Virus record (IMG/VR): IMGVR_UViG_3300037504_001227 | Coordinates: 1-37,628 of that record | Reading direction: 5' to 3' (one strand) | From: a virus | DNA length: 37,628 bases | Part shown: positions 1,502 to 37,512 of the stretch, one piece after another | Numbering within the stretch: position 1 is the first letter of the stretch | Layout of the letters: each line of letters starts with the position of its first letter | Translations under genes and position numbers: made by a program | Notes under the pieces: model-generated | Database searches by the model: none | Told to the model about the DNA's origin: nothing | What the model saw: the letters and a program-made list of their open reading frames with translations, nothing else

Positions 1502-1566
1502 AATTTTAACATTTTTTATAAGAAAGTTAAAAAAATAATTATATTAATAATATATAGGAGGCAAAA

Positions 1567-5627: not shown

Positions 5628-5645
5628 TCATACCTCCTATTTTTT

Positions 5646-5896
5646 TTAAAACTCCAAAAAATTAACTATTAAATAACAGCGTTTTAAGCCACTTTATTTT
5701 AAAATAAGTATAATTACATTAAAATTAAAATAAAACTGCTTATTTTAACGTTATTTAACAAGGTAAAAATCCTGTAAAGTACTGATAATAAACAATATAC
5801 AGGATTTTAACTGTTTTTTATCCTTATTTTTAAACCCTTAGCCTTGTAAAGCCTTGTAAATAAACAATCTTATTTTATAAATAAGTATAGTTATTT
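5646..5896 (-). repeat. Long intergenic repeat, copy 2 (core orientation B)
   Basis: Element between the tail-fibre gene and the lysis-side genes, oriented with leftward transcription. It shares its downstream end (TTTTTTGGAGTTTTAAAA on the minus strand) with copy 1. It carries two TTTACAAGG motifs (5849-5872), a core at 5771-5803 and the two-part stem-loop. In the direction of transcription the core reads CCTGTATATTG, inverted relative to copy 1, while the flanks keep the same orientation. Confidence 0.9.
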
Positions 5897-5899
5897 ATT

Positions 5900-7054: not shown

Positions 7055-7066
7055 TTTTTAAACTCC

Positions 7067-10751: not shown

Positions 10752-10767
10752 TTTTTCCTAATCCTCT

Positions 10768-11008
10768 AAAAATTAACTATTAAATAACAGCCTTCTAAGC
10801 GGTTTTATTTTAAAATATATATAATTACCCTAAAATAATTTTAAAACCGCTTATTTTAACGTTATTTAATAAGGTAAAATCCCTGTATATTGTTTATCAT
10901 CAATAGTTTACAGGTTTTTAACTGTTTTTTATCCTTATTTTTAAAACCTTAATTCTGTAAACCCTTGTAAATAAACAATCTTATTTTATAAATAAGCATA
11001 GTTATTTA
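10768..11008 (-). repeat. Long intergenic repeat, copy 3 (core orientation A)
   Basis: Between the gp25-like and baseplate J genes. Core at 10882-10914 in orientation A. The inner stem of the downstream structure is perfect over 11 bp (10797-10807 with 10842-10852, AAGCGGTTTTA type). The outer arms are 10780-10788 and 10861-10869. The downstream end matches copy 4 through the ribosome site and start codon of the next gene. Confidence 0.9.
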
Positions 11009-11009
11009 T

Positions 11010-11417
11010 TTATATATTAAATCTTCTTGTTATAGTTTCTTCTTCTCCTATATCAACTTCTAATTCTACTGTTAAAGTCCTTGTAGAAGTTTCTAATGTT
11101 AAATCTAAATTTACAATATCTTCTACTTCATCAATATCTAAAATTTCATTTCTAAATAATGTTTTTATATAATTTAAATCTGGATTTTTTATATGTATAC
11201 CGGTTCCTCTAATTCGTCTACCAAATTCATCTTTTTCTCCAAAATAAGGCAAACCTAAATTTTTATTTAGTGGCCATTCGCCCTTTACAAATAATAATTT
11301 TTCTGTTATTTTTTGTGAAACATATTGTGTTTTATTTTTAGAAATTCTTAAATCATAATTTTCAACAATTAAATCATTGTTGGTTTCATCATTATATAAA
11401 TCAAATCTACTAGCCAT
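11010..11417 (-). CDS. gpW/gp25-like baseplate wedge protein
   Basis: The 135-residue protein has the gp25/gpW lysozyme-like fold pattern: an N-terminal strand with LYNDETNNDLIVENYDLR, YVSQKITEKLLFVKGEWPLNK, GLPYF, and a C-terminal region with NPDLNYIKTLFRNEILD and beta strands. In contractile tails it docks the wedge to sheath and tube and helps start sheath assembly. It overlaps no neighbour; 3 bases separate it from the spike gene upstream. Its stop is directly at the edge of repeat copy 3. Confidence 0.85.
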   Translation of the reverse strand: MASRFDLYNDETNNDLIVENYDLRISKNKTQYVSQKITEKLLFVKGEWPLNKNLGLPYFGEKDEFGRRIRGTGIHIKNPDLNYIKTLFRNEILDIDEVEDIVNLDLTLETSTRTLTVELEVDIGEEETITRRFNI

Positions 11418-13298: not shown

Positions 13299-13846
13299 TA
13301 AAATCTGCCTCCTAAATTAAAACTAGTAGGATTGGTTTTCCCTCTATTTAATTCATTAGATAATTTTCTATTAATATCAGAATCCATATTTTCTAAATTA
13401 ATACTGGCTTCAATTGTAACATCTTTTAAATTAACAATGTTAACCTCCTGAAATGAAATAGCAAATTCTAATACCTCTCCTGTATCCTCGGTTCTTATTG
13501 GATTTATATTTAATATTCCCACCTGTTGATATACATCATGAATTGTACTAATATCAACCAATTTTCTTTTTTTCCATAATTCTTTTAACTTATCAAATGT
13601 GTCTTGCGCTCTATTTGATAATATCCCGGCTTTTTTTAAAGAAAAATTACTTACTAATCCTGTTAAATCTCCAGTCCTCAAATTATTTTGAATATGGTCA
13701 GAAATAACACTACCATTTTCTATCCTATGCTGAGTAATAGTATTAGACATAGTATGCGATTCATCTATAATTAAATCAATAGGAATACTATCTATTTTAT
13801 ACTCTCGAATTCCTGCAAAATATAAATTAGCGGACACTTCTGCCAT
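13298..13846 (-). CDS. Dit-like / tail-baseplate connector protein
   Basis: The 182-residue protein begins with IDSIPIDLIIDESHTMSNTITQHRIENGSVISDHI, a pattern of Dit-like N-terminal domains in Mu-like myophages. Later LVDISTIHDVYQQVGILN and EFAISFQEVN continue the typical strands. The C-terminus is helical with Asn/Arg. It overlaps the tape-measure stop through TAATG. It probably links the tail tube to the hub. Confidence 0.7.
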   Translation of the reverse strand: MAEVSANLYFAGIREYKIDSIPIDLIIDESHTMSNTITQHRIENGSVISDHIQNNLRTGDLTGLVSNFSLKKAGILSNRAQDTFDKLKELWKKRKLVDISTIHDVYQQVGILNINPIRTEDTGEVLEFAISFQEVNIVNLKDVTIEASINLENMDSDINRKLSNELNRGKTNPTSFNLGGRF

Positions 13847-15552
13847 TAAAACCCTGCCTCAATCAGAACTTTTTTAAGTTCTAAATTAAAAATCGCTTTA
13901 GTTTTTTCCCCAACCGCATTACTAATATCATCACTATTATTAACACCAGAAAAATTATTATTTTGGTTTATATTAACATTGGTTTTTTTCGTATTATTCA
14001 TGATTTCCTGCGCCGGGTTAAATTTTTTTAATTCTCTTATTGATACTTTTGGGATTTTATTTAACTGTTTAATTAAAAAATTTATTTTTTCTATAATAAA
14101 ATCAATTACACCTAAAAAAATTCTTTTAACATTTTTAAAACTTAATAATTCTTCTGCTTTCTCTACAAAATTAAATAATTTATCATTAGCGGTATCAATT
14201 CCATCACCAATTCCTTTAAATAAAAAATTCCAAGGAGCAAATACAGTTTTTACTAGTGTTTTTCCTAATGCTATTAGAATTCTAAATATAGCCCCAATCG
14301 GTCTTAATAATTTTAGCGCAACTCCAATCGGTTTTATAAACGGTCCAAGCGCAGCCCCAACATGTTTAATTAAAGGAGGGAGAATGTCAGAAAAGAATCT
14401 TATCATTTGTTCAAATATCATTGCCAATCCAGATTCTTCAAATGCTTTATTACTAGCGGCTTCCATCCTCGATGTGAATTCATCACTAGCTCCGCTAAGC
14501 CCTTTAAATGCAAATGCAGCGGCCTTTTGAGCTGTTCCGGAAGCATCTTCATTTTTTTGTATCAATGTTTCTAATGAATTTACTTGTGCATTTGTAAATA
14601 TTTCTAATGCTCTTTTTCCACGACTAGCCTTTCCAAAACTTTCAAAAAATAATTTACGACTTGCTTCATCCAAATTTTCTATTTGTTTTAACAAACCAGA
14701 AAAATCTTTAAATTTACCAGACTGATCAATAAAATCAGATAAATTTATATTTGCTTTTTCAAACGCGGCTTGAATCTTATCTGTGGGACTTCTTAAATCT
14801 GTAATAGCATTTCTCAATAACGTACCAGCCAAACTCCCTTTAATACCATTATTTGCAAGAGTCCCAAAAGCTGCAGAAAGTTCTTCAATACTTAATCCAG
14901 CTAAATTACCAGTGGCTCCTAATGTAGAAAAAGCTTCTCCTAATCCTGCAACATTTGTATTTGCACTATTGGCAGTTTTTGCAAGTACATCATTAACTCT
15001 CCCTAGCTCTTCAACTTCAATTTTATTTGAAGCCATAATATTTGTTGAAATATCAGCAGCGCGGGCCAAATCCATTTCGGCCGCTGCCGCCAATTGTAAA
15101 GTTTTAGGCAACGCTTTAATAACTTGTTGTAAATTTAATCCTGCCATTGCAAGAAATTTCTGGGCTTCTGCCGCTTTTGCAGTTGAAAAAACACTCGCTC
15201 CACCAGCTTCGAGTGCTGATTCTTTTAATAATTGTTGCTGTTTGACATTTGCTTCTAATACCCTTGCAGCGCCTTTTAATCCTCTTTCAAATTTTTCAAA
15301 TCCTTTTCTCATTTTATTTATACCCGCAACAACGGCACCAATAGTAACTGCTATTGCTGCAAGTTTCATATTCGCAGATGAAAAAATACCAGATAATCTG
15401 CCTAATCCAGGAATTTGTCCTAGTATACCACCAAATTTGTCTTTTAATCCTTGCATATTAAATTTCATTTTATTGGTGGTACGATTAAATCTTTTTGCCT
15501 TTGTGTGATCTGTTTTGAAACCTAATTTAATAAATAATTCTCTTACAGTCAT
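13846..15552 (-). CDS. Tail tape measure protein
   Basis: The 568-residue protein contains the phage tail tape-measure core. An N-terminal basic helical region is followed by a hydrophobic segment at about 60-78, then ALEAGGASVFSTAKAAEAQKF, MDLARAADISTNIMAS, LAKTANSANTNVAGLGEAFS and AFGTLANNGIKGS. Hydrophobic stretches occur at about 380-440. It is short for a myovirus, predicting a tail of roughly 80 nm if the usual 0.15 nm per residue holds. Its ATG overlaps the TGA of the frameshift product of the upstream chaperone gene. Confidence 0.88.
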   Translation of the reverse strand: MTVRELFIKLGFKTDHTKAKRFNRTTNKMKFNMQGLKDKFGGILGQIPGLGRLSGIFSSANMKLAAIAVTIGAVVAGINKMRKGFEKFERGLKGAARVLEANVKQQQLLKESALEAGGASVFSTAKAAEAQKFLAMAGLNLQQVIKALPKTLQLAAAAEMDLARAADISTNIMASNKIEVEELGRVNDVLAKTANSANTNVAGLGEAFSTLGATGNLAGLSIEELSAAFGTLANNGIKGSLAGTLLRNAITDLRSPTDKIQAAFEKANINLSDFIDQSGKFKDFSGLLKQIENLDEASRKLFFESFGKASRGKRALEIFTNAQVNSLETLIQKNEDASGTAQKAAAFAFKGLSGASDEFTSRMEAASNKAFEESGLAMIFEQMIRFFSDILPPLIKHVGAALGPFIKPIGVALKLLRPIGAIFRILIALGKTLVKTVFAPWNFLFKGIGDGIDTANDKLFNFVEKAEELLSFKNVKRIFLGVIDFIIEKINFLIKQLNKIPKVSIRELKKFNPAQEIMNNTKKTNVNINQNNNFSGVNNSDDISNAVGEKTKAIFNLELKKVLIEAGF

Positions 15553-18938: not shown

Positions 18939-19282
18939 CTGTCCTCCCTCCTAAATTCTGCATAATATTTATAATGATTTATTATCCCAGATTGCCAAGG
19001 TTCTTTTGCAATTATTTCATATAAATCATTTTGAAATAATACCAAATCTCCTGTATAATCCTCATCAGGTTTACAAATTTGTAACTCTTCATCTGTATAA
19101 CATTTAATTTTCCCTACATTTCTCCTACCGACATTCATATTCTCTAATTCTTTTCCTGTAACTGGTTGGACACTCATAGAAATTGTTAAATCTGCTCTAT
19201 CCCCAGGTGTCCATTGACCCTTTATGTAGGTTCCTCCAGACATTCTTTTAACTGTATAATCATTTCTAAATGGATTGCCCAT
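18935..19282 (-). CDS. Head closure / head-tail joining protein
   Basis: The 115-residue protein is beta-rich, with GTYIKGQWTPGDRADLTISM, SVQPVTGKELENM, and YTGDLVLFQNDLYEIIAKEPW. This is the usual pattern of small head-tail stoppers between connector and tail-completion proteins. It follows repeat copy 4 and shares its start context with the baseplate J gene. Assigned by pattern and order. Confidence 0.68.
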   Translation of the reverse strand: MGNPFRNDYTVKRMSGGTYIKGQWTPGDRADLTISMSVQPVTGKELENMNVGRRNVGKIKCYTDEELQICKPDEDYTGDLVLFQNDLYEIIAKEPWQSGIINHYKYYAEFRREDS

Positions 19283-19290
19283 TTTTTCCT

Positions 19291-19536
19291 AATCCTCTAA
19301 AAATTAACTATTAAATAACAGCCTTCTAAGCGGTTTTATTTTAAAATATATATAATTACCCTAAAATAATTTTAAAACCGCTTATTTTAACGTTATTTAA
19401 CAGGTTAAAAATCCTGTATATTGTTTATTATCAATACTTTACAGGTTTTTAAGCCTTTTTTGCCCTTATTTCTAAACCTTTAATTCTGTAAACCCTTGTA
19501 AATAAACAATCTTATTTTATAAATAAGCATAGTTAT
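19291..19536 (-). repeat. Long intergenic repeat, copy 4 (core orientation A)
   Basis: Between the gp10-like and head-closure genes. Core at 19413-19445 in orientation A. The stem arms match copy 3 (AAGCGGTTTTA type), and the downstream end is identical to copy 3 into the next gene. Its upstream spacer reads AAAAAAGGCTTAAAAA as in copy 1, so copies are mosaics of one another. No ORF is inside. Confidence 0.9.
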
Positions 19537-19989
19537 TTATTCTATTTTTATATCAATAGAATTTACTAATTGTCCCTTATCAATTAATGGTTTTGAACTT
19601 CCTTTTTTTCTAATAGTTTCTGGCTTAAGCGGTTTAAAATCTCCATTTCTTATTTTATCTTGTATTTTTTCTTTCATAAATAAACCTATGGATTTTAAAA
19701 AACCTCCTGTTAAACTTTTTGATACTAGAAATTTATCTGTTAATTTATTTGTCTTTTTCATTAATTCTTTATTTTGTTCATCAAACGATGTCCGCATAAA
19801 TGAACGTTTAGGAATTCTCCTATCTTTTGTTCCAAACTCATGGATGGCTGCTCTTGCCGCAATATTAGTTTTAGGAGAATCTCCCTGTCCCCAATAACCA
19901 ATTTTTACGGTTTGATTATTTAAAGAAAATAATCCTTTTTGAATTTTATTCCATCCTAAATCTTTGTCTATTACTATTGTTCTACTCAT
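19537..19989 (-). CDS. HK97 gp10-like tail completion protein
   Basis: The 150-residue protein shows the gp10/virion-morphogenesis pattern: VKIGYWG, AARAAIHEFGTKDRRIPKRSFMRTSFD, and a C-terminal GDFKPLKPETIRKKGSSKPLIDKGQLVNSI. The IHEFG and PxRSFMR blocks are characteristic. It helps complete the tail and join it to the head. Its ATG touches the stop of the gene before it, and its TAA is at the edge of repeat copy 4. Confidence 0.82.
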   Translation of the reverse strand: MSRTIVIDKDLGWNKIQKGLFSLNNQTVKIGYWGQGDSPKTNIAARAAIHEFGTKDRRIPKRSFMRTSFDEQNKELMKKTNKLTDKFLVSKSLTGGFLKSIGLFMKEKIQDKIRNGDFKPLKPETIRKKGSSKPLIDKGQLVNSIDIKIE

Positions 19990-22849: not shown

Positions 22850-23821
22850 TTAAATATTATCACCATATGCAACTGATAATGGATAATAAACAATAACACC
22901 AGCAGTCCTGGTTTCAGTTAATATTTCAAATCCATAACCTTTTTGCTGAGGCGGTAGAGTTGTATAAGGCAATGGTATTTCTAAAGTTAAATGATCTGCA
23001 TCTTTTGGATACACCATAAACCTATCAACACCACCCAATCCACCAGTATTTAATTCAGTTACCCAATCCACAGTTGTAATTAAACCATTAGTTTTCATAA
23101 AAAAACTTAAAATAGTTTCATCACTATTACCAGTCATTCTAGTAGTAGATACTAATCGATGTTGTTCAATCGGCATTATCATGGTATCAGGAATTTCTCT
23201 ACCATTAGTTGCATTAACAACCGCAGTAACAATGCCATTCATATCTTCGATTATTTCATCCGGAGTTTTAGTGCTCCATTGCGGAGAGCCAGCAGTACCG
23301 TTCGGAACAACATACGCCGAAATTCCAGAATAATCTATAAAACCTTCAATACTATAATCAGTATCTCCACTCCAAGCAATTCTATCAACCTCTTCATCAC
23401 TAGCCCTTTTAGCAGTATTTGCTCTTTTCTGATCTAATGATTTTCCTGCCATTTGTGAACGTCTTATTTCCTGCCTATCATATCCGAAACTATCGCCAAT
23501 TCTGTAAACCTTCCTTGAAGATTCTGAACCATATATATCTACTCTCGGAGCATCATTAGCATAATCAGCTATAATTTTTGCTTTTCCAACTTTTGTATAA
23601 CTTTGATATGTAATACTCTCAGCTCCTGCGTCCGCACTAGTATCAATAGGAAACAAATCAAAAGCTTTTAAATCTTTATATTTTGTATCATAACTTTTAG
23701 TTTTTATATATTCTAACTCTCTTAGAAAAAATGCAGATTCACCCGCGTCTCCAAGATAATTATTAACAATATTGAAATCTCTTTCATCAATTTTGACTCC
23801 ATCAATAATTATATCGCCCAT
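22850..23821 (-). CDS. Major capsid protein (DUF2184-type)
   Basis: The 323-residue protein follows the DUF2184 capsid pattern: YDTKYKDLKAFDLFPID, ITYQSYTKVGKAKIIADYANDAPRVDIYG, GDSFGYDRQEIRRSQMAGKSLDQKRANTAKRASDEEVDRIAW and TMIMPIEQHRLV, ending ETRTAGVIVYYPLSVAYGDNI. It has the HK97-like fold by family knowledge. The preceding genes encode the cement protein and the protease/scaffold, the normal head order. GGAGGAGAATAA precedes the ATG, a strong ribosome site suited to a very abundant protein. Confidence 0.9.
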   Translation of the reverse strand: MGDIIIDGVKIDERDFNIVNNYLGDAGESAFFLRELEYIKTKSYDTKYKDLKAFDLFPIDTSADAGAESITYQSYTKVGKAKIIADYANDAPRVDIYGSESSRKVYRIGDSFGYDRQEIRRSQMAGKSLDQKRANTAKRASDEEVDRIAWSGDTDYSIEGFIDYSGISAYVVPNGTAGSPQWSTKTPDEIIEDMNGIVTAVVNATNGREIPDTMIMPIEQHRLVSTTRMTGNSDETILSFFMKTNGLITTVDWVTELNTGGLGGVDRFMVYPKDADHLTLEIPLPYTTLPPQQKGYGFEILTETRTAGVIVYYPLSVAYGDNI

Positions 23822-23833
23822 TTATTCTCCTCC

Positions 23834-24607
23834 TTATGCCCACGCTCTTTCAGTATAAGGCTTATAACTACCATTGCATTCAATGATAGCAAGCTTATCC
23901 GAAGTTGTGGGATTATCATAATCATTACTTTTAAATTTGCAACTAACCGTTAACCCAGCAGTATCATCAAAAGTTCCATTTGTAGTTTCAATATAGGCAT
24001 CATCTTCTGCATTAACAGTACCTGTAATTGTTGCCCAAATAGTTCCTCTATTTACAATAGATACAGAATCATATTGTTCGTATTTTCCAGTACCACTAGA
24101 ATCAACATTTTTTGCAGTATACATAGCAACGCCTAAAAACACTTGTGAAGTTTCATATGTAATCGTTCCAGTAGGTTGACTTCCTCCGCCTGTAACGGCT
24201 TCTGATACAGTTCCGACTGCTGAACCTTTTGATTTTCTGATATAGATTGTTCTATTATCAGTATCCGTAGCATCCAACGATGCATCCCAACCCTCACCAG
24301 TCAATTCAGTTATAAGCGCATCCATAGTTGTATCATGATCGGTATCAAAAGAAACTGCATCTGCTGCAGTTCCGTCAACTGTAATCACAATAGAATTACT
24401 TGCAACAAAATCAGCATCAAATACTATTTTGGCGGTATCAAGATAAAATCCATAACATTTATCTTCTTCACCTAAATATCCCCAAACAGAGGCTCCAAAT
24501 GAAATACCACCAGAATCTTGAATTGCTCTTGATATAACTCTTGTTACATCATTATTATCAGCTTTTAATCCCGCAATTGCGGTATCAATGTTATTATAAG
24601 CACTCAT
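23834..24607 (-). CDS. Capsid cement / decoration protein with inserted beta domain
   Basis: The 257-residue protein begins with AIQDSGGISFGASVWGY and has a beta-rich C-terminal part with SVSIVNRGTIWATITGTVNAEDDAYI, typical of phage structural cement proteins beside DUF2184 capsids. Residues about 68-150 (NSIVITVDGTAADAVSFDT, TMDALITELTGEGW) are an insert similar to those in the sheath and baseplate J. Its ATG overlaps the stop of the protease/scaffold gene. It probably trims or stabilises capsid surfaces. Confidence 0.72.
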   Translation of the reverse strand: MSAYNNIDTAIAGLKADNNDVTRVISRAIQDSGGISFGASVWGYLGEEDKCYGFYLDTAKIVFDADFVASNSIVITVDGTAADAVSFDTDHDTTMDALITELTGEGWDASLDATDTDNRTIYIRKSKGSAVGTVSEAVTGGGSQPTGTITYETSQVFLGVAMYTAKNVDSSGTGKYEQYDSVSIVNRGTIWATITGTVNAEDDAYIETTNGTFDDTAGLTVSCKFKSNDYDNPTTSDKLAIIECNGSYKPYTERAWA

Positions 24608-25191
24608 TATTTATCCTCCTTTCCGTTCAACCTGTCGATATAATCTCGATAGGCTTTTTTCGAATCAATTATCACTTCTGATCCATCATTTTTTGGTAAA
24701 TTTCCGAAAACCTTTTTCTTATTATTAATAGTATTTTCATTTTCAGTTTTTAAAATATCAATAGCCGAATCATATCTTGCATCAATATAAATTACATCTT
24801 TTTCATCCAATTTTGCTTCAGGAAACACTTTCATAATAATTTCTTTTTTAATATCCAAATTGGATTTACCATCTGTTTTTTCAATTCCTGCTTTTTTAGC
24901 ATTATCTTTTAATTCAACCTTCTCTTGAACTGCTTTTTCAATAGCTTCATCAGAAATAGTTTCGTTTTTCAATTTTTCTATCTCTTCATTAGCTTTATTA
25001 AGTTTATCATTTGCAGTATCAAGATTTGCCTGTAATTGCGATAATTCTTTCTGTTTTTCAGTTTTGAAATTATCAAAATCTTTTTTTACCTTTTCATTGT
25101 CCTTTTTGATTTGTGTATAAGCGGTTACCACAGCGGCTTCTGCTTGATAATCAACTCCATCAAGAACAATTCTTTTCAAATTATCTGACAT
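24607..25191 (-). CDS. Nested scaffold protein from an internal start
   Basis: Inside the protease gene and in the same frame, GGAGG (25199-25203) lies 7 bases before an ATG at 25191. It begins MSDNLKRIVLDG and gives 194 residues. This is exactly the boundary between the protease domain and the coiled-coil scaffold. Lambda C/Nu3 and similar phages make scaffold this way. The signal is as strong as any genuine start in the window. The product is inferred and not shown. Confidence 0.65.
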   Translation of the reverse strand: MSDNLKRIVLDGVDYQAEAAVVTAYTQIKKDNEKVKKDFDNFKTEKQKELSQLQANLDTANDKLNKANEEIEKLKNETISDEAIEKAVQEKVELKDNAKKAGIEKTDGKSNLDIKKEIIMKVFPEAKLDEKDVIYIDARYDSAIDILKTENENTINNKKKVFGNLPKNDGSEVIIDSKKAYRDYIDRLNGKEDK

Positions 25192-25803
25192 ATTTTTTCC
25201 TCCATCGTCATTATTATCTATATACAAACTATCATTAATTAGGATAGCTTCATTACTGTCCAGTCGCATCACTGCTAAATCACCAGCTCTACCTTTATCA
25301 ACTATTGCCACATGATTATATCTGATATTTCTTTGTATAGCATCATAAGGGACTCCCATCCAATTTCCAGGAGTAAAATCTAAATCTGCTATATAACCAC
25401 AAGACAAAGCTCTCTTCCCATTTTTTATGTCATTTATTGATTTTTCGTCTCTTATTGATATTGGAACAGATACTGCATAAGAATCTTTATATACAGAATC
25501 TCCAGTTGTGCCTATTTCATATTTTTTAACATTATCAATTGTAACTAAATCTTTTGGATGATTGTTTGTAATTGGTTTTAATCTTAAAGTATTTAAACTA
25601 TTTTCATCAAATACCTCTTCCGGAGGTCTTAATTCTCGTATAATTTTTCCATCTTTATCCCTGTATGTAAATACTCCAACATTTGTAACAATAGGTGTCC
25701 CTGTAATAAACCCCTCTTTTTCTTCTCTAAATATATCAGTTAATATATATTTAGTCTCGTCCATTAAATCATAATGCTGTTTATTTTTAATTTCTTTTGG
25801 CAT
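24607..25803 (-). CDS. Capsid maturation protease fused to scaffold (DUF2213-type)
   Basis: The 398-residue protein has a DUF2213-like N-terminal half: EGFITGTPIVTNVGVFTY, ELRPPEEVFDENSLNTLRLKPITNNHP, ALSCGYIADLDFTPGNWMGVPYDAIQRNIRYNHVAIVDKGR. H at NHP and the SCGY and NHVA blocks are the usual conserved points. Residues 205-398 form a Lys/Glu-rich coiled scaffold. An internal ribosome site and ATG at 25191 would make that scaffold alone. Repeat copy 5 is directly upstream, so the head operon probably starts inside or near it. Confidence 0.82.
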   Translation of the reverse strand: MPKEIKNKQHYDLMDETKYILTDIFREEKEGFITGTPIVTNVGVFTYRDKDGKIIRELRPPEEVFDENSLNTLRLKPITNNHPKDLVTIDNVKKYEIGTTGDSVYKDSYAVSVPISIRDEKSINDIKNGKRALSCGYIADLDFTPGNWMGVPYDAIQRNIRYNHVAIVDKGRAGDLAVMRLDSNEAILINDSLYIDNNDDGGKNMSDNLKRIVLDGVDYQAEAAVVTAYTQIKKDNEKVKKDFDNFKTEKQKELSQLQANLDTANDKLNKANEEIEKLKNETISDEAIEKAVQEKVELKDNAKKAGIEKTDGKSNLDIKKEIIMKVFPEAKLDEKDVIYIDARYDSAIDILKTENENTINNKKKVFGNLPKNDGSEVIIDSKKAYRDYIDRLNGKEDK

Positions 25804-25819
25804 TTTTTATCCTATATGC

Positions 25820-26060
25820 AAAAAATTAACTATTAAATAACGGCGTTTTAAGCCACTTTATTTTAAAATAAGTATAATTATACTAAAATAATTTTAAAAC
25901 CGCTTATTTTAACGTTATTTAATAAGGTAAAAATCTTGTAAAGCACTGATAATAAACAATATACAGGTTTTTAACTGTTTTTTATCCTTATTTTTAAAAC
26001 CTTAACCTTGTAAAGCCTTGTAAATAAACAATCTTATTTTATAAATAAGTATAGTTATTT
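25820..26060 (-). repeat. Long intergenic repeat, copy 5 (core orientation B)
   Basis: Directly upstream of the protease/scaffold gene and directly downstream, in the leftward direction, of the terminator at 26093-26122. Core at 25935-25967 in orientation B, with one boundary diverged to CTTGTA. The stem centre has AGTATAATTATACT, including TATAAT. Since no gene lies between the terminator and this copy, head-gene transcription must pass the terminator or begin within this element, which makes it the best copy in which to look for promoter activity. Confidence 0.9.
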
Positions 26061-26092
26061 ATTTTATAAAACTATACTCTAATAAATAAAAA

Positions 26093-26122
26093 AGGCATTT
26101 ATCGACCTAACGATAAATGCCT
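26093..26122 (-). terminator. Terminator upstream of repeat copy 5
   Basis: A perfect 12-bp stem AGGCATTTATCG/CGATAAATGCCT with loop of 6. On the minus strand it is followed by TTTTTATTT; on the plus strand by AAGTTTTTC. It separates the rightward structured locus from the leftward head operon and may work in both directions. Confidence 0.85.
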
Positions 26123-26251: not shown

Positions 26252-26279
26252 TTGACTTATTATAATAATATGTTATTAT
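26252..26279 (+). promoter_or_regulatory. Sigma70-like promoter of the structured RNA locus
   Basis: TTGACT at 26252-26257 and TATTAT at 26274-26279 are 16 bases apart, and TG at 26271-26272 precedes the -10 as in extended -10 promoters. A start near 26286 puts a 9-bp hairpin (AAGTTGCTT/AAGCAACTT, 26288-26309) at the very 5' end of the RNA. It is the clearest host-type promoter I see in the window. Confidence 0.65.
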
Positions 26280-26320
26280 TAAATTATAAGTTGCTTAATA
26301 AAGCAACTTAAATAAATTAA

Positions 26321-26339
26321 AGCTGGGAGGCTGAAATGA
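26321..26339 (+). promoter_or_regulatory. Conserved 19-nt initiation block, copy A
   Basis: AGCTGGGAGGCTGAAATGA contains the Shine-Dalgarno GGGAGG and, 5 bases later, the ATG of the first ORF. The identical 19 bases recur at 26900-26918 before the second ORF. CTGGGAG here can pair with CTCCCAG at 26810-26816 in the 3' hairpin of the same unit, which could hide the ribosome site. Confidence 0.7.
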
Positions 26340-26806
26340 ATAAAAATCAAAAAGATATATTATCGTTAACAAAAACGATAATCAAAAATTCGAATATATC
26401 TTTAAAGATATATTCGAAAGAAGAAATCAAAAAAATAAAAATCTCCTGCGGGACAGGAGTTTTTGGATGGACAACAAACGAAGAGATTATAAAAAAATAT
26501 AATCTCGGATGTTCTGTCCAATTAGCAGGGGATGATAATGATTCTTTTGTTGTACCTGAAATAAAGACAATGAATTGTAAATCCAATTCATTGTCTTTAT
26601 TAAAAGAAGCCTTTAAAAAAATAAAGGCTTTAAAATTAAGAAAAAATATTGCAAGAAAAAGATTAAACCGAATAGCTGAAGAAATAGCTTATTCGGTATT
26701 AAAAAATATTAATATAAAAAGTGTACATATAAAAGAAAGACCTTGTCCTCCCCTAAAATGGGCGAACGAATGCAAGGTTTTAATAAATTGGGAGAGCAAT
26801 AGCTAA
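26336..26806 (+). CDS. ORF A of the structured locus, unknown protein
   Basis: The 156-residue product starts at the ATG in the conserved block and ends with a TAA placed in the loop of the first 3' hairpin. Residues 34-75 look beta-rich (KISCGTGVFGWTT, GCSVQLAGDDNDSFVV). Residues 85-130 look helical and basic (LLKEAFKKIKALKLRKNIAR). No family is recognised. A chance frame of this length is unlikely at this base composition, so it is probably translated, even though at least seven strong inverted repeats lie inside the codons. It runs opposite to the surrounding structural genes and could be a moron or early gene. Confidence 0.55.
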   Translation: MNKNQKDILSLTKTIIKNSNISLKIYSKEEIKKIKISCGTGVFGWTTNEEIIKKYNLGCSVQLAGDDNDSFVVPEIKTMNCKSNSLSLLKEAFKKIKALKLRKNIARKRLNRIAEEIAYSVLKNINIKSVHIKERPCPPLKWANECKVLINWESNS

Positions 26807-26840
26807 GCTCTCCCAGTAGGGATGGTGTAAAAGCCGTCTC
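26789..26840 (+). other. 3' hairpin pair, unit A (kissing-loop candidate)
   Basis: Stem TGGGAGAGC/GCTCTCCCA with 9-base loop AATAGCTAA (26789-26815) is followed after 3 bases by an 8-bp stem with loop GTAAAA (26819-26840, two or three G-U pairs). The same two loops recur in unit B on different stems. This second hairpin lacks a U-tract, so transcription should continue to unit B. Confidence 0.8.
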
Positions 26841-26884
26841 TGTAATGCAGCCAAGGCCGGTCGCAAGCCCGGGAAAATGCAGAG
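26838..26884 (+). other. GC-rich linker between the two units
   Basis: This noncoding stretch contains CTCTG (26838-26842) that can pair with CAGAG (26880-26884), enclosing CCGG/CCGG arms (26857-26860, 26869-26872) around loop TCGCAAGC. It is the most GC-rich stretch of the locus and is not explained by either ORF. Its first bases compete with the hairpin before it, which could allow a switch. Confidence 0.5.
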
Positions 26885-26899
26885 CGAAAAAAAATAAAT

Positions 26900-26918
26900 A
26901 GCTGGGAGGCTGAAATGA
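26900..26918 (+). promoter_or_regulatory. Conserved 19-nt initiation block, copy B
   Basis: Identical to 26321-26339, again with GGGAGG 5 bases before the ATG. AGCTGGGAG here can pair with CTCCTAGCT at 27181-27189, nine pairs including one G-U, so the ribosome site could be masked by the 3' module of its own unit. Confidence 0.7.
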
Positions 26919-27157
26919 GAAATATTTTAGTAGACACAAAAAATGATGTTATTGTTGCAATGAGTAACAAAAATATCAGATATGTTAAAAAAATAAATAG
27001 ACAATTGGAAATGGATCAAAATTCCAATTTGTCTAAAAGAGAAATATTGAACAAATTGAATAATTTGTTCAATATTATTCAAATAACAAACGAGGAATAT
27101 TCCTCGTTAAAAAAAGGAATTATTCCTGATAAATTTCCATATAGTTTATATTATTAA
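26915..27157 (+). CDS. ORF B of the structured locus, unknown protein
   Basis: The 80-residue product starts in the second conserved block: RNILVDTKNDVIVAMSNKN, then a helical region (LSKREILNKLNNLFNIIQ) and an aromatic end SLYY. I recognise no family and see no clear homology to ORF A. The codons contain a 13-bp stem with one bulge (26998-27035), a 15-bp perfect stem with a 4-base loop (27043-27076) and a 20-base palindrome (27089-27108). The stop lies just upstream of the 3' hairpin pair. Confidence 0.5.
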   Translation: MRNILVDTKNDVIVAMSNKNIRYVKKINRQLEMDQNSNLSKREILNKLNNLFNIIQITNEEYSSLKKGIIPDKFPYSLYY

Positions 27158-27159
27158 TA

Positions 27160-27186
27160 TAGGAGCGCAATAGCTAAGCGCTCCTA
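27160..27186 (+). other. 3' hairpin with AATAGCTAA loop, unit B
   Basis: Stem TAGGAGCGC/GCGCTCCTA with the same 9-base loop as unit A. Relative to unit A, two base pairs have changed on both sides (G-C to A-T, and A-T to C-G), so pairing is preserved while sequence differs. That is direct covariation within one molecule. Confidence 0.85.
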
Positions 27187-27190
27187 GCTG

Positions 27191-27219
27191 GAGGCAGTGT
27201 AAAAACTGCCTCTTTTTTT
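27191..27219 (+). terminator. Rho-independent terminator of the structured locus
   Basis: Perfect 8-bp stem GAGGCAGT/ACTGCCTC with loop GTAAAA, then TTTTTTT (27213-27219). The loop is the same as in the non-terminating hairpin of unit A. It also reaches the stop codon of the leftward gene at 27218. Confidence 0.9.
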
Positions 27220-27379
27220 ATCCCTTATGATAATTATCAGGCCCAATTCTTTCCCTTTTCTGCACTTCAATATCAATTTTATTTTTTCCTAAAACATGTA
27301 TAACAACCTTCCCATATTCTATATTTTTTAATTTCTCTTTTATAATTTCACAAGTAGATTGAATTAAATTATCATTCAT
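27218..27379 (-). CDS. Small hypothetical protein after the MuF-like gene
   Basis: A 53-residue frame starts at ATG 27379, 8 bases after the TAG of the MuF-like gene, with AGGGG as ribosome site, and ends in TAA at 27218. The product begins MNDNLIQSTCEIIKEKLKN and continues with GKVVIHVLGKNKIDIEVQKR, a helix followed by two beta strands. The tight spacing and good composition favour a real gene. Function unknown. It ends within the U-tract of the opposing terminator. Confidence 0.6.
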   Translation of the reverse strand: MNDNLIQSTCEIIKEKLKNIEYGKVVIHVLGKNKIDIEVQKRERIGPDNYHKG

Positions 27380-27387
27380 ATAAGCCC

Positions 27388-28530
27388 CTATATTTTATTT
27401 AACAAACTATCCCACCCAGGATTACTGCCACACCTGCATTGATAATCAGAGCCAGGAATCCCAATGTATCCATTTATCCCAGCCCTTGAAACCCAATCAA
27501 CACCATTATTAAAACTAATCACAGTATCATCATCCCATCTACATAGCCCACCATGTAAATTATTATGTTTAGGTCTAACTCGTTCGTCCCTGCTAGTTAT
27601 CCAGAAATAGGTTTCAATTCCTACCTCTGTTTGACGTTTTTTTGTTAACCTTCCATTTAATTTATTAACCTGATCCCTAGCTATCAACTCACTCCTGCTT
27701 TGTACCTTTTTTCTTCTTTTTTTACCTGTCTTTTTATCTATTACAGTTTTAGTTCTTCCAGTATATATTCTTTTATCAATCTTAATAAGTTCTTTTTCTA
27801 TAAAATCATGTGTCCGGCCTTCCTGCATACCTCTATATATAGTCTCAACAAATTTTTTTCTATACTCATTACTTAATCCTTTTATTAATGCGACATTTTC
27901 CCTGACCCAATTTTTAGAAATTGTATTTGTCCAACTTTCAGGCATTATATATTCAAAATTTAATTTTTCTTTAAATATTTTTTTAAATTGTTTTAAATTA
28001 AATTTATTTACCAATCCGAAAAAGAAAAATAATTTAGCGTTTAATCCTTCTTTTTGTTCATCAAATATTTCTTTTTCAGTTTTATCATATTTATCTAAAT
28101 TTTTATCAAGCTCATCTTGCCAATCATCTTTTATATAATTATCCTGTATTCTATTTTTATTTTCCTCGCCCCACCTTTCTAAATTTGGAATAATTTGTTT
28201 TTTTAAAATATTTCTAAATGGTTCAGAAATATCTAATATTTCTTTATTATATTTATTTATCATTGTTTTAGGAGGATCAATCCATTTTTTAGTTTTACCT
28301 TTTTTTATTTTTAACTTTCCAGTTTCTTTTAATGCTCTTAATTGAGATAATATATATTGTTCAGAATCAATAGAATCTTTTTTATAATTATCTTCTGGAA
28401 ACTCTCCCCCACCTATTGCCAACGCCTGAGCAATCGCTTTTTCTTTTGCATTCCTGCCAATATAACAGGTTCCCGACTCTCCCCATTTCCAACCTCTTTG
28501 ACCACTTTTTGTACATCTCTGAATTGGCAT
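27388..28530 (-). CDS. MuF-like head morphogenesis protein
   Basis: The 380-residue protein has the phage Mu gpF / SPP1 gp7 C-terminal domain: ELIARDQVNKLNGRLTKKRQ, WITSRDERVRPKHNNLHGG, GIPGSDYQCRC. The N-terminus (IQRCTKSGQRGWKWGESGTCYIG, then a helical segment) carries Cys pairs and may bind the portal. In the family this minor head protein is needed for infectivity and lies inside the capsid. AGGAGG at the end of repeat copy 6 provides its ribosome site. It is separated from portal by repeat copy 6 and a 74-residue gene. Confidence 0.85.
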   Translation of the reverse strand: MPIQRCTKSGQRGWKWGESGTCYIGRNAKEKAIAQALAIGGGEFPEDNYKKDSIDSEQYILSQLRALKETGKLKIKKGKTKKWIDPPKTMINKYNKEILDISEPFRNILKKQIIPNLERWGEENKNRIQDNYIKDDWQDELDKNLDKYDKTEKEIFDEQKEGLNAKLFFFFGLVNKFNLKQFKKIFKEKLNFEYIMPESWTNTISKNWVRENVALIKGLSNEYRKKFVETIYRGMQEGRTHDFIEKELIKIDKRIYTGRTKTVIDKKTGKKRRKKVQSRSELIARDQVNKLNGRLTKKRQTEVGIETYFWITSRDERVRPKHNNLHGGLCRWDDDTVISFNNGVDWVSRAGINGYIGIPGSDYQCRCGSNPGWDSLLNKI

Positions 28531-28546
28531 TTTTTCTTGACCTCCT

Positions 28547-28788
28547 AAAAATTAACTATTAAATAACGGTGTTTTAAGCCTCTTTATTTTAAAATAAGTA
28601 TAATTACACCAAAATAATTTTAAAACCGCTTATTTTAACGTTATTTAATAAGGTAAAAATCTTGTAAAGCACTGATAATAAACAATATACAGGTTTTTAA
28701 CTGTTTTTTATCCTTATTTTTCAACCCTTAGCCTTGTAAAGCCTTGTAAATAAACAATCTTATTTTAATAATAAGCATAGTTATTTTT
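28547..28788 (-). repeat. Long intergenic repeat, copy 6 (core orientation B)
   Basis: Between the small gene after portal and the MuF-like gene. Core at 28661-28693 in orientation B, almost identical to copy 5 including the CTTGTA boundary. The first bases of the element (AATAACTATGC) supply the stop codon of the upstream gene. Confidence 0.9.
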
Positions 28789-29005
28789 CTTTTAATAAAT
28801 CTTTTAAATATTCTTCTTCTGCTATTTGATCAGATGATTTTTGTTTAATTCTTTTTTTTATTTGCACAGTATCATTTAAACATTTTACGATATTATCTCT
28901 GATCATTCCTGAATCAGTATTGGTATATACTCCCACTATTTTTGATAACTCTGTTATTTTTTTACTAATTTTATTATTTATTTTTTCTTCTTTACTCTTC
29001 TTCAT
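28781..29005 (-). CDS. Small Lys-rich protein after portal
   Basis: The 74-residue helical protein (KKSKEEKINNKISKKITELS, then SGMIRDNIVKCLNDTVQIKKR) starts at ATG 29005, inside the last codons of the portal gene. A start at 29029 is less likely because the protein would lie deeper in portal and the ribosome site is worse. The TAA is formed by the first bases of repeat copy 6. Function unknown; position suggests a portal or packaging helper. Confidence 0.5.
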   Translation of the reverse strand: MKKSKEEKINNKISKKITELSKIVGVYTNTDSGMIRDNIVKCLNDTVQIKKRIKQKSSDQIAEEEYLKDLLKEK

Positions 29006-30446
29006 TTTCTTCTGGCTCCTCAAATTCAATATCTAACAATCCAGTCTCTAAACTATAACCATTCTCAAATCTGCTCACCCTAATTTCCTCATCTGATAAT
29101 ACTCCCATCTGATAATAAATATTATCAATTTCAGCTCTCATTTTTTTAACTTCAATAATTTCTTTATCTGATTGTTGAAACAGACTATTAAATAATACAT
29201 TAGGATTCTCAACCTTTTTATTCCCAATTTCTTTACTAACATTTATTAAATTTATCAAATCTTGTAATGGATTTTTTAGAACATTTTTTTGGCTTGATCT
29301 TACTATATCATAATAATTAACAATATCATTTTTTCCAGTTGCATTTTGACCAGCCGGACTTCTACCAAACAATCTTGTTACAGGATAATCCGAAACTCCT
29401 GCTATAAACATCATAAATCTATCTAATAATTCCGGTAAACCAGCAACCGAAATATTATCTCTTGTATAGTCCTCCTCACTATCTATTAATACAGACTGAA
29501 TCATAGATTTACTTAAATCAATAGCATTCATCCTATTCCTCAATAACTCCTCATTTCCTTCTGCCAACAACTCTGCTAATCCCTGCAATTTATATTTTCC
29601 AATAATAAATTCATATAACAATTTTGCAACATTTCTCCTGCCAGCTCCAACGTCTGTTAATTCATTCCAAATAGGTTGTAAACAACTCATCCCCCAATAC
29701 CAAAAATTACCAGTCTGAACATTATCAGGAACCTCAATCCCTTTAAAAACTAAACATCTATCTCTATGGATATTAAAAACCGTTCCAAAATTTGGAGAAA
29801 CCGTAAACCATTCTACTTCCCCGAATCCAGGACTATTTGGATCATTATCAAAATTATAATCCGTTAAATGAACATTAGTTCTAGGATATGTTTTTATCCA
29901 ATCGATAGATTTTATTGCATTTGGATTTACCGGTTCTGAAATATCCCTACCGTCATTAATCCCTATTGCTATTATAGCTCCACCAAATAATCTCTTCCAT
30001 TTAACAGCTAAATTAAATTCTTTTTCTGCTTTTAATTTTTCTAATTTATTACATAAAATATTCTCTTCATCATTTTCTATATTAATCCACTCTCTAGTCA
30101 TATCATCAGCTCTCGCAGACACTATTTTATGGCCTAGCCCTTCGCCTATCCACATCTCTCCAAGCATTTGATCTGTAAGATAATTATAACCAGAAAAATA
30201 TGTATAATAACTTTTATCTTGTGTCCCTCCCATGCCTGTTATAGCATTTATCCAATTATCAGCCCTAAACATATTTTTTATATTTTTATAATTTTCCTTA
30301 TTTTTTAATTCATTATCTTTTCTAATTTTTTCTTCTTGTTGTTTACTAATAACAGGACTCGCAATAGATTTTATTTTTCCTTTTTTTATATCATCCACAT
30401 ACCTATTAACATCTCGTCTATATTTTTCTCTCTTTTTATCAACCAT
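28992..30446 (-). CDS. Portal protein (DUF1073/Mu gp29-like)
   Basis: The 484-residue protein matches DUF1073-type portals: GEGLGHKIVSARADDMTREWINI, FKGIEVP, GMSCLQPIWNELTDVGAGRRNVAKLLYE, FMMFIAGVSDYPVTRLFGRSPAGQNATGKNDIVNYYDIV. Twelve copies form the vertex channel for DNA. The C-terminus is highly acidic (DIEFEEPEENEEE). The N-terminal 60 residues are basic. It follows TerL by 9 bases. Confidence 0.88.
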   Translation of the reverse strand: MVDKKREKYRRDVNRYVDDIKKGKIKSIASPVISKQQEEKIRKDNELKNKENYKNIKNMFRADNWINAITGMGGTQDKSYYTYFSGYNYLTDQMLGEMWIGEGLGHKIVSARADDMTREWINIENDEENILCNKLEKLKAEKEFNLAVKWKRLFGGAIIAIGINDGRDISEPVNPNAIKSIDWIKTYPRTNVHLTDYNFDNDPNSPGFGEVEWFTVSPNFGTVFNIHRDRCLVFKGIEVPDNVQTGNFWYWGMSCLQPIWNELTDVGAGRRNVAKLLYEFIIGKYKLQGLAELLAEGNEELLRNRMNAIDLSKSMIQSVLIDSEEDYTRDNISVAGLPELLDRFMMFIAGVSDYPVTRLFGRSPAGQNATGKNDIVNYYDIVRSSQKNVLKNPLQDLINLINVSKEIGNKKVENPNVLFNSLFQQSDKEIIEVKKMRAEIDNIYYQMGVLSDEEIRVSRFENGYSLETGLLDIEFEEPEENEEE

Positions 30447-30455
30447 TTATATCTC

Positions 30456-31718
30456 CTATTTGTATAAATTTATATAATTCTTTTTATGGAATTTTTCTCT
30501 TAATAATGATGCAGCAGAATCAGGACAATCATCAGGTTCCTGCCCCTCTATATAATCTAATATTTGATTAAGATATTCAGGATCTGTATCCTGATCCCAA
30601 TCTATTTTTGTCCAATATTTATATAAATAATTCGTTATTTTAACATGTTTATTTTCTTTTTCATGATAAGTTTGGACTGGTATACCTCTTTTTTTTAATT
30701 CGTCTGCCACAAATCCCTTATCAGCATTGTCTTCTAATAAAAAAGTACCGCAAAAGTATTTTTTCCATTTTTCTACTATAAAATCATATTTATTTTTTAC
30801 ATGATCTGGAAAACAAAATCCTACTCCCTGTATTCTACCATCATGTTTTTTTCTAAAAAATGTTAAACCATTAGTATGCTCTCCGGAATATTTAGCGTCT
30901 AAATGCCCAAAAATCCCTGTTCTTTTAAACTCCCATCTTTTAAAATTTGGGTTAGTAAATAACGCATCTTCTGATGCTATATGTTTTAATTCATAGTTTG
31001 CAGCGAATAACGATGGAGTTATTGTTTTTCTTTTTTCTGTTATTTCATTTTCTGTTAATATTCCCGTTTGCCTATAATCATATTTAATAGGAATAACCCC
31101 TGCATTATGTAAAAAATTCCAACAATCATCTTTATGCCATGGAGTGCCTATAAATTTTACAAATTTACCTGGATCAATAATATTTGTTATTATTTCCTGT
31201 ATAATTAATTTTGTCCTTTCCCTATCTGCCTTACTAACCCTATCTTTAATTGTAACAAAATCATCACAAATTATCAAATCATAGTGTTTCCCTGTAATTC
31301 CAGTATCAATACCATACGCATCAATATTTCCCTCCGGGGTTTGTGTTTGTTTAAAATTAAATTGTAATTTAGAATCTCTTTTAATTTTTAATTTCGGCTC
31401 TGTCCCATTATGTGCATATCTAAATAATTCTATTAATACAGGGATTGAAAAAATATTTCTTATTGTATATAAACATTCAGCGGCGTCTGTATATCTTTTT
31501 CTAATTATCGCTATCCTATCATTTGGATGAAATAATAACCACCAGATGCATCCAATAATTATTATAGAAGTTGTTTTAAAACTCCCTCTATGAGCCAGCA
31601 AACCCACATGAGCAAATGTGTCAAAAATATATAAAATCCAATTTGAATGAAGATAGGACAACTTAGTCTTACCAACTAAGTGTCCTAAAAGGTGAGGATA
31701 TTTACGAATTTTTATCAA
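30456..31718 (-). CDS. terL: Terminase large subunit (start uncertain)
   Basis: From the TTG at 31718 the product has 420 residues. The ATPase motif is HRGSFKTTS (43-51), a Walker A variant; Walker B is YDLIICDDF (D152, D153). The nuclease begins GHLDAKYSG (D274), with E329/D330 and a late PDDCPDS as other acidic ligands. The true start may be upstream: the frame stays open to 31742, and the residues before TTG (TQSHLIKIRKYPHLLGH) look family-like. The best ribosome site, GGGAG, is followed by ATG GAG TAG (31751-31743), an in-frame amber. An ATT at 31739 also has GGAG 6 bases upstream. Confidence 0.85.
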   Translation of the reverse strand: MIKIRKYPHLLGHLVGKTKLSYLHSNWILYIFDTFAHVGLLAHRGSFKTTSIIIIGCIWWLLFHPNDRIAIIRKRYTDAAECLYTIRNIFSIPVLIELFRYAHNGTEPKLKIKRDSKLQFNFKQTQTPEGNIDAYGIDTGITGKHYDLIICDDFVTIKDRVSKADRERTKLIIQEIITNIIDPGKFVKFIGTPWHKDDCWNFLHNAGVIPIKYDYRQTGILTENEITEKRKTITPSLFAANYELKHIASEDALFTNPNFKRWEFKRTGIFGHLDAKYSGEHTNGLTFFRKKHDGRIQGVGFCFPDHVKNKYDFIVEKWKKYFCGTFLLEDNADKGFVADELKKRGIPVQTYHEKENKHVKITNYLYKYWTKIDWDQDTDPEYLNQILDYIEGQEPDDCPDSAASLLREKFHKKNYINLYK

Positions 31719-32318: not shown

Positions 32319-32555
32319 TTAACTCTTCCTATCTATCGTATATAATAAATGTACAATCTGTTTATCTATTTCCTCTGTATATTCATTAACAGGGATAAAA
32401 AAATTATAATAAATTTTTTGTTTTAAATATAAAAAAAATTCATAACCTATTTGTTTTTCTTTATTTTTAATTTCTCTTTCTTTTAATTGAATAATTAAAG
32501 AATCTACATCTTCATTTTTCACACTCATTTTTATAGTATCTGTGATTATTCTCAT
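32319..32555 (-). CDS. Hypothetical protein downstream of TerS
   Basis: The 78-residue protein (RIITDTIKMSVKNEDVDSLI, then KEKQIGYEFFLYLKQKIYYNFF) is mixed beta and helix with many aromatic residues and no motif that I recognise. Its ATG overlaps the TGA of the TerS gene, so it is translated together with it. Confidence 0.55.
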   Translation of the reverse strand: MRIITDTIKMSVKNEDVDSLIIQLKEREIKNKEKQIGYEFFLYLKQKIYYNFFIPVNEYTEEIDKQIVHLLYTIDRKS

Positions 32556-33160
32556 TTTTTTATTTCTGGATCTCTTTTATTTTGATTAAAAATCTCATCT
32601 AATGATTTCACAGTATCTTTTGTCAATCCCACATCAACTGATAATTCTTTTGTCATCTGTATATATTTATCCAATTTGTCAATCGCCCTATCTCTATCTG
32701 CTAATTTCAAAATTATAACGGAAGTGGTAGCATCTTTGCCATAATATTTTTTTTCTACACCATCCACACAGCATCGCCATTCATTCGGAATATCCTCTAA
32801 TTCTTTGAACTCTCCATTCTCATTTTGAAAAATAGAAATATCATAAAAAGCTCTTCGATAAAGTACATCAATTAATTCTTTTTCTAATTTGCCCCGTTTC
32901 TCTTCCAACCAATCTGTTATAACTATACGTAATGCTTCCCTAATCTTTGGATTCCTTAGCAACAAACAACCATTTGTATAAGCTGTATCCATAGTGATAT
33001 CAGGCTTCTTAGCTACATGTTTCAAATAAGCTTGTCCTGCATTCATCCCATTATTTAGATATTCTACTACAAATTTTATATGAGAAAGTTTTACTTTTTC
33101 TTTTTTTAATTTAAAATATAAATCTTTTCCTATATTATTTTTAATATTTTTTACTGTCAT
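32552..33160 (-). CDS. terS: Terminase small subunit
   Basis: The 202-residue protein has the terminase small-subunit layout. Residues 20-75 form an HTH-type DNA-binding region (LSHIKFVVEYLNNGMNAGQAYLKH, AYTNGCLLLRNPKIREALR), followed by a helical oligomerisation core and FQNENGEFKELEDIPNEWRC, characteristic of Terminase_2 proteins. The end (LADRDRAIDKLDKYIQM) is typical as well. Three small genes lie between it and TerL. An 18-codon frame overlaps its start. Confidence 0.83.
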   Translation of the reverse strand: MTVKNIKNNIGKDLYFKLKKEKVKLSHIKFVVEYLNNGMNAGQAYLKHVAKKPDITMDTAYTNGCLLLRNPKIREALRIVITDWLEEKRGKLEKELIDVLYRRAFYDISIFQNENGEFKELEDIPNEWRCCVDGVEKKYYGKDATTSVIILKLADRDRAIDKLDKYIQMTKELSVDVGLTKDTVKSLDEIFNQNKRDPEIKK

Positions 33161-36600: not shown

Positions 36601-37512
36601 TCAATTAATTGAACCAAAACATGCCAAACTTAGACCCGCCTTACCACTATTATAAAAAGATTCTTCAAAATTTTCTATAACAATTGCCGCTTTTGAATTT
36701 CCAGAATTCAATAGTACACTATTCATATAACCTAAAACAGCATGCCTAACTTTTTCAGGATCATCATTTATTTTTTTTAACACCTCCGATATTTTATTCC
36801 AAGAATTTGACTTTAACAATATTCTACATAAATCAATTATTTCTTTTTGACTATCCGGAGTTGAACTAGCTATATGTAAAGCCTGCTCCTCATCATCTAT
36901 ATCAATAACTTTTTCTAATAATTTAATTGAATCTCTAACATGCCCTTCGCTAGTATCTGCTATTTTTTTAAGAATTTTACCGGAAACATTTTTATTTTCA
37001 TTTTTACAAATAAATTTTAATTTTTTTATAATTTCTATATTTGAACTTTTCTGTATATCAATTTTTATGCACCTACTCAAAATTGTATTTAATAATTTTT
37101 TTGAATCAGTTGTAACTAAAACAAAATAAACATGCTGCGGAGGCTCTTCTAATACTTTTAATATTGCTTCCTGATAATCCCTAGTCCAGCGATGACACTC
37201 ATCCATAATATAAGCCCTAATATCCGATCCATCAAGCGGCTTAAATTGAGCATTATCTATTACTCTTCTTGCAGTTTCAATTCCTCTATTATTAGAAGAA
37301 TTTATTTCTTCTATATTATAAATATTACAACCTAATCCCTTTAAAAAAATTCTCGCTAATGTCGTTTTACCAGTACCATAAGCCCCTGAAAATAAATAAG
37401 TATGCGGCCTGTTTTCGTTTTTTATAAAATTTTTTAAAATATTTATCTGGCTATCATTCCCTATAACATCATCAAATTTTTTTGGTCTATATTTTTCTGT
37501 TAATTCCATCAT
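36601..37512 (-). CDS. DnaX/RFC-like clamp loader ATPase
   Basis: The 303-residue protein has a complete AAA+ clamp-loader core: TEKYRPKKFDDVIGN, Walker A GAYGTGKTT (43-51), Walker B YIMDECHRW (D104, E105), and the SRC motif (146-148) with its Arg finger. The C-terminal collar is short. It resembles DnaX/RfcS and phage T4 gp44-type loaders and would load a sliding clamp for replication. AGGAG precedes two adjacent ATGs (37512 and 37509); either may be used. The gene opens the leftward array as far as it can be seen. Confidence 0.82.
   Translation of the reverse strand: MMELTEKYRPKKFDDVIGNDSQINILKNFIKNENRPHTYLFSGAYGTGKTTLARIFLKGLGCNIYNIEEINSSNNRGIETARRVIDNAQFKPLDGSDIRAYIMDECHRWTRDYQEAILKVLEEPPQHVYFVLVTTDSKKLLNTILSRCIKIDIQKSSNIEIIKKLKFICKNENKNVSGKILKKIADTSEGHVRDSIKLLEKVIDIDDEEQALHIASSTPDSQKEIIDLCRILLKSNSWNKISEVLKKINDDPEKVRHAVLGYMNSVLLNSGNSKAAIVIENFEESFYNSGKAGLSLACFGSIN

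Follow-up and report, generated by a model that had tools for sequence, protein, structure and literature searches.

The analysis covers an IMG/VR virus record 37,628 bases long, referred to here as the window. In the gap between its head morphogenesis and head protease genes lies an element of about 0.93 kb carried on the plus strand; the structural genes of the window are on the minus strand. From one end to the other, the unit consists of a leader, ORF1, hairpin A, hairpin B, a twister ribozyme, a second leader, ORF2, again hairpin A and hairpin B, and a U-run (Table 1). A sigma70-like promoter, a hairpin at the predicted +1 and a terminator closing the locus had already been proposed in a first-pass annotation and are all found, with the qualification that the promoter, taken alone, is a weak consensus match, as a scan returned 15 such sites in the sequence versus 11.8 in shuffles. 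The twister between the two ORFs and the repeated plan of leader and tail had been missed. Next to the element, an ORF of about 50 amino acids at 27220-27380 on the minus strand resembles by eye the DUF2292 short phage proteins, and its stop codon touches the element's terminator.

Table 1. Positions in the window of the parts of the element and of the surrounding phage features.
Feature	Position	Strand	Description
Promoter-like site	26252-26279	+	TTGACT-16-TATTAT, TG before second hexamer; 10/12 consensus matches
Hairpin at predicted transcript 5′ end	26287-26310	+	perfect, 10 bp
Leader copy 1	26321-26338	+	AGCTGGGAGGCTGAAATG; Shine-Dalgarno and ORF1 start
ORF1	26336-26806	+	156 aa, no known family; hairpins of 6-18 bp
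Tail 1 hairpin A	26789-26815	+	9 bp, loop AATAGCTAA; contains ORF1 stop codon
Tail 1 hairpin B	26818-26841	+	9 bp, loop GTAAAA; predicted cut 2 nt past its end
Type-P1 twister ribozyme (RF03160)	26839-26890	+	predicted cut U26843/A26844; permissive Rfam search
Leader copy 2	26900-26917	+	identical with copy 1
ORF2	26915-27157	+	80 aa, no known family; helical by prediction, with hairpins of up to 15 bp
Tail 2 hairpin A	27160-27186	+	loop shared with tail 1; stem with two compensated changes
Tail 2 hairpin B, then U-run	27190-27220	+	intrinsic terminator
Terminator-like hairpin	26093-26122	not assigned	T-runs on both sides; between element and protease operon
Clamp loader gene	36601-37512	-	
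Small terminase gene	32552-33160	-	
Large terminase gene	30456-31718	-	
Portal gene	28992-30446	-	
Head morphogenesis gene	27388-28530	-	
Head protease gene	24607-25803	-	
Major head protein gene	22850-23821	-	
Tape measure gene	13846-15552	-	
Leader repeat (about 270 nt), plus-strand copy	1246-1512	+	
Leader repeat, minus-strand copies	5636-5905, 10747-11016, 19278-19547, 25800-26069, 28526-28796	-	
Start of gene behind the plus-strand repeat	1567	+	
Starts of genes behind the minus-strand repeats	5627, 10751, 19282, 25803, 28530	-	

The two halves of the unit share both their beginning and their end. The 18-nt leader AGCTGGGAGGCTGAAATG has two exact copies in the window, versus 0.02 expected by chance. 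In the tails, the loops are identical for hairpin A (AATAGCTAA) as well as for hairpin B (GTAAAA), and all of the 18 stem pairs are kept in both copies through four compensated and four one-sided changes. Specifically, hairpin A has two compensated changes among its nine pairs, and hairpin B keeps nine of nine pairs with two compensated and four one-sided changes. Shifting the pairing partner by 1-3 columns breaks the pairing; a shuffle control, in which 127 of 500 shuffles do as well, is without power because only two copies are compared. As hairpin B of tail 1 stands at the cut and hairpin B of tail 2 at the U-run, a single 3′-end design is predicted, made by the ribozyme in the first case and by the terminator in the second. 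In the global fold, the leader (AGCUGGGAG) may pair over a long range with a tail arm (CUCCYAG), but the arm pairs more strongly within its own hairpin. Pattern searches outside the window returned the leader in three unrelated places of IMG/VR (L052 adjoins a possible intron) and in 19 matches among GTDB genomes, none of them with dense hairpins. The tail-twister junction also gave 19 matches, none of which is a twister, and a match of the tail DNA pattern (L049) proved to be a chance occurrence inside a coding gene.

The frames of 156 and 80 codons had been described as covering the same bases. Both ORFs and their identical starts hold, but they are consecutive and do not overlap. Both reading frames are real. 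Judged by the phage's own codon use, the coding frame ranks best of the six frames in ORF1 and in ORF2, with a score per codon (0.13-0.16) that is less phage-like than that of the phage's other genes (0.30-0.37). No credible family was retrieved from Pfam or PHROGs with either protein, the best E-values being 0.008-0.2, and no homologue was found by peptide-pattern scans of IMG/VR, by tblastn in INPHARED or by a PDB search. Likewise, blastn in phages and plasmids gave no homologue of the element as a whole, which is therefore known from one instance, with no homologue in any collection searched. AlphaFold gives no usable model of ORF1 (pLDDT 33), and for ORF2 it gives two helices with a pLDDT of 67, which is too weak a model for a structure search.

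The element is packed with predicted RNA structure. A folding energy of -300 kcal/mol is obtained for the 931 nt at 26285-27215, versus -165 +/- 6 in 20 dinucleotide shuffles (z = -21.9), and the fold is a row of local hairpins. The dense structure reported by the first-pass annotation is thus confirmed, whereas its count of about 16 stem-loops has to be raised to about 20 hairpin domains. When perfect hairpins are defined by a stem of at least 9 bp and a loop of 3-10 nt, nine fall within the 0.93 kb of the element, most of them inside the two ORFs, versus 12 in the other 36.7 kb of the window (0.33 per kb), in agreement with the claim that the neighbouring genes show nothing comparable. Other loci, 725 kb in all, carry such hairpins at 0.14 per kb, with never more than three in 930 nt. 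Several perfect stems of 12-17 bp had been described; three of at least 12 bp are present (13, 15 and 18 bp), but the remaining perfect stems are of 9-10 bp. To our knowledge, such hairpin-packed coding regions are unlike any described DNA-phage gene.

Base pairing has shaped the synonymous sites of both ORFs. When codons were swapped among synonymous positions, with the protein and the codon usage held constant, the sense strand gave z-scores of -9.2 for ORF1 and -5.6 for ORF2 (-9.8 and -5.7 in a repeat run), and ten other phage genes ranged from -2.5 to +1.3. This supports the first-pass view of a locus that is at once structured RNA and mRNA. Moreover, G-U pairs are absent from the long stems, and all three codon phases are represented among the stems, which implies that the amino-acid sequence has also been shaped by pairing. 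The antisense strand is structured to about the same degree as the sense strand, with antisense synonymous z-scores of -8.9 (ORF1) and -4.7 (ORF2) and dinucleotide z-scores for ORF1 of -10.8 in sense and -12.7 in antisense; this symmetry is no proof that selection acts on RNA. The sole comparable sequence among those tested is the RNA of MS2, whose coding segments give dinucleotide z-scores of -3.7 to -8.2 and synonymous z-scores of -4.1 to -10.7 with the same strand symmetry. By these statistics, the element is closer to single-stranded RNA phages than to the genes of a DNA phage. Like the Leviviricetes, it is a coding RNA full of local hairpins on both strands with synonymous sites shaped by pairing; unlike them, it resides in a DNA phage, with no replicase and no related protein found.

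The start regions are less paired than the rest. The unpaired fraction is 0.63 in the ribosome-binding region of ORF1 versus 0.40 in its body, and 0.50 versus 0.35 in ORF2, where the comparison of this measure with other genes covers part of the control gene set. The suggestion that translation is controlled by structure finds no direct support here, the ribosome-binding region of ORF1 being more open than the body. Escape from a U-cutting nuclease through loss of unpaired U was also considered and rejected, since unpaired U has the same frequency here and in other genes. The linkers left single-stranded on either side of the hairpins are rich in A, so that sense transcription should not terminate at them.

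The sequence between the ORFs matches the type-P1 twister with 50.3 bits and an E-value of 1.8e-8 over the whole 37.6-kb window. This is below the Rfam gathering score of 67.2, which only L020 passes among 11 loci chosen by the core pattern. The core is intact, with UAA at the cleavage site, GC.GCC, the CCGGUCxCAAGCCCGG loop of P4 and GC.GAG, and the pair in the T2 pseudoknot (GGUCxC with GAGxG) is G-C. In each of the 30 distinct phage twisters that were parsed, the window included, this variable T2 pair is of the Watson-Crick kind; four pair types occur among them. Unlike the family model, stem P1 forms only two of four pairs in the alignment, because its 5′ strand overlaps the tail hairpin; two or fewer P1 pairs are seen in 7 of the 30 phage twisters, among which the window counts through a misread register. 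A twister without P1 cleaves at a near wild-type rate, P1 being dispensable (PMC5408937). No ribozyme was found on the minus strand, nor a second one in tandem.

The position of the twister, between a stop codon and the next start, is that of other type-P1 twisters in phages. A core-pattern search yielded 43 IMG/VR contig stretches with twister-like cores (L006-L048). Of the sites measured, 24 of 32 lie within 62 nt after a stop codon, and many are within tens of nucleotides of the next start codon. Thirty-three distinct sites other than the window, which include some related contigs and are not all independent, were folded over the 32 nt that precede the cut; their median energy is -11.2 kcal/mol, with 82% of them at -8 or lower. 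This threshold is reached by 27% of the stretches 40-72 nt upstream of the cuts, by 9% of those after the twisters and, taking the best of three windows, by 38% after other stop codons (p ~1e-7). With -13.3 kcal/mol before its predicted cut, the element is in line with these sites. A stable hairpin is present at 27 of the 33, ending 0-6 nt before the cut in 26 cases and at 9 nt in one, and mostly just past a stop codon; accordingly, the hairpin-twister module looks general. The stretch that follows the phage type-P1 twisters is, as a rule, unstructured. No report of the hairpin-twister pairing was found in the literature searched. None of 205 tested ORFs neighbouring other twisters is as extreme in both structure statistics. 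On a 198-kb phage contig (L032, 3470-4830), a run of small genes has hairpins, a twister and, by eye, a hammerhead-like sequence between its members, the last of these with no Rfam match at the gathering score; a 77-aa ORF in this run has a dinucleotide z of -10.8 and a synonymous z of only -3.5.

The rest of the phage genome offers some further observations. A repeat of about 270 nt, with six copies that are about 80-92% alike, stands each time shortly upstream of a start codon and is apparently a repeated promoter or 5′ UTR of the phage's operons. In three of the six copies, the segment between CCTGTA and TACAGG is inverted, a sign of hairpin-mediated inversion in this genome. No relative of the repeat was found in INPHARED, and a search for related phages through the head morphogenesis protein returned none. 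In the tail region, the gene at 7067-8590 encodes a repeat protein, with a 138-nt (46-aa) unit present seven times at 7015-8142 on the minus strand (motif SPYITIYKRSGDTFTKL). A weak match to the abiF RNA family at 3625-3662 on the minus strand (28.6 bits, E = 0.32, gathering score 37) is probably due to chance.

On balance, the element is probably a moron-like cassette adjoining the late structural operon, with a bicistronic mRNA whose self-cleavage yields two long-lived, hairpin-capped messages. Its transcription and cleavage, the stability of the RNA with its reason, and the functions of the proteins are what we infer from the sequence. In particular, a host-type promoter would start the RNA at the 5′ hairpin, and the twister past ORF1 would cut it at 26843/26844 into two mRNAs of about 557 and 375 nt. 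The first would carry the 5′ hairpin at its start and end flush with tail hairpin B in a 2′,3′-cyclic phosphate; the second would begin with the folded twister, bearing a 5′-OH, and end with the same kind of tail followed by the terminator. The RNA would be double-stranded nearly throughout, save for the ribosome-binding sites and the A-rich linkers, and the long-lived messages would give rise to two small proteins. As to why the coding regions should be so highly double-stranded, the most likely reason is protection of the RNA against single-strand RNases by their hairpins of 9-18 bp, and the hairpins might also block annealing to antisense read-through of the structural operon. RNase III prefers roughly 20 bp, and the hairpins of the element are shorter.

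Protection of the message is the explanation that we favour for the hairpins. We consider it unlikely that the palindromes are a product of the DNA level, arising by hairpin-templated strand switching in replication or by selection for cruciforms or single-stranded DNA hairpins, with RNA structure as a by-product. The equal structure of both strands, the absence of G-U pairs from the long stems and the occurrence of stems in all codon phases speak for such an origin, and the inverted segment of the 270-nt repeat indicates that hairpin-mediated rearrangement does occur in the phage genome. It leaves unexplained, however, why only 0.93 of 37.6 kb is affected, coinciding with one transcription unit, and why the ribosome-binding region of ORF1 is spared; furthermore, the signature on two strands is also that of MS2, whose genome is RNA. 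A little less probable again is a main function in insulation from antisense, that is, that the sense and antisense RNAs are too folded to anneal and that some hairpins terminate the structural-operon transcripts. The unit does run opposite to the structural genes, both of its strands are structured and four terminator-like hairpins lie inside it on the minus strand, but the U-runs of that strand are explained by the A-rich linkers on both sides of the hairpins, and minus-strand termination was for this reason rejected as their purpose.

The likeness to MS2 also bears on a very improbable origin of the element from an RNA replicon or satellite, of which it would be a copy or a relative carried on DNA; such a replicon or satellite would be bipartite, having shared ends and a ribozyme. 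The structure statistics match or exceed those of the MS2 coding segments, and two modules with common ends are indeed accompanied by a ribozyme. Nevertheless, no replicase or reverse transcriptase match appears among the window proteins tested, and no Pfam or PHROG family of replicase, coat or maturation proteins, or any other RNA-phage family, is matched above chance by ORF1 or ORF2. A minus-strand or second tandem ribozyme is missing, and the promoter-like site and the terminator are of a normal kind. Hardly credible, finally, is a large ornate noncoding RNA with reading frames by chance. The first-pass annotation had drawn this comparison, and the GOLLD, ROOL and OLE RNAs (PMC12286853) do share with the element its size of about 930 nt, an extensive predicted structure and, for GOLLD and ROOL, a phage location. 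They are noncoding, whereas this RNA is coding, with 156- and 80-codon frames that have identical ribosome-binding leaders and rank best of six; its structure is a row of local hairpins, and none of the three covariance models finds a match in the window even at E-values up to 10.

Among the closest known systems are hammerheads flanking prophage genes, for which a role in dividing long phage transcripts into mRNAs of one gene each has been proposed; in one case, a hammerhead array, cleavage was seen in E. coli (PMC3088659). The element agrees with them in the proposed cutting between the genes of a phage transcript, and differs in having a twister with a stable hairpin directly before the cut, repeated with a U-run at the end of mRNA 2. 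More tentatively, and with more doubt than confidence, self-processing "armoured" mRNAs might be a new kind of DNA-phage expression unit, in which synonymous and amino-acid choices make the coding sequence double-stranded and the 3′ ends cut by a ribozyme or made by a terminator share one hairpin design. Selected proteins could thus be made while other RNA is destroyed, for example by an RNase-based host defence.

Twister ribozymes are very common, yet what they do biologically has been called largely speculative (PMC5408937). The hairpin that precedes most of the phage twister cuts offers a directly testable role, namely that of a maker of hairpin-capped mRNA 3′ ends, and the window bears on this role with a single tail design that is completed by the ribozyme after ORF1 and by the terminator after ORF2. 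In addition, its hairpin-packed coding regions would be well suited to testing if phage messages are protected by mRNA structure.
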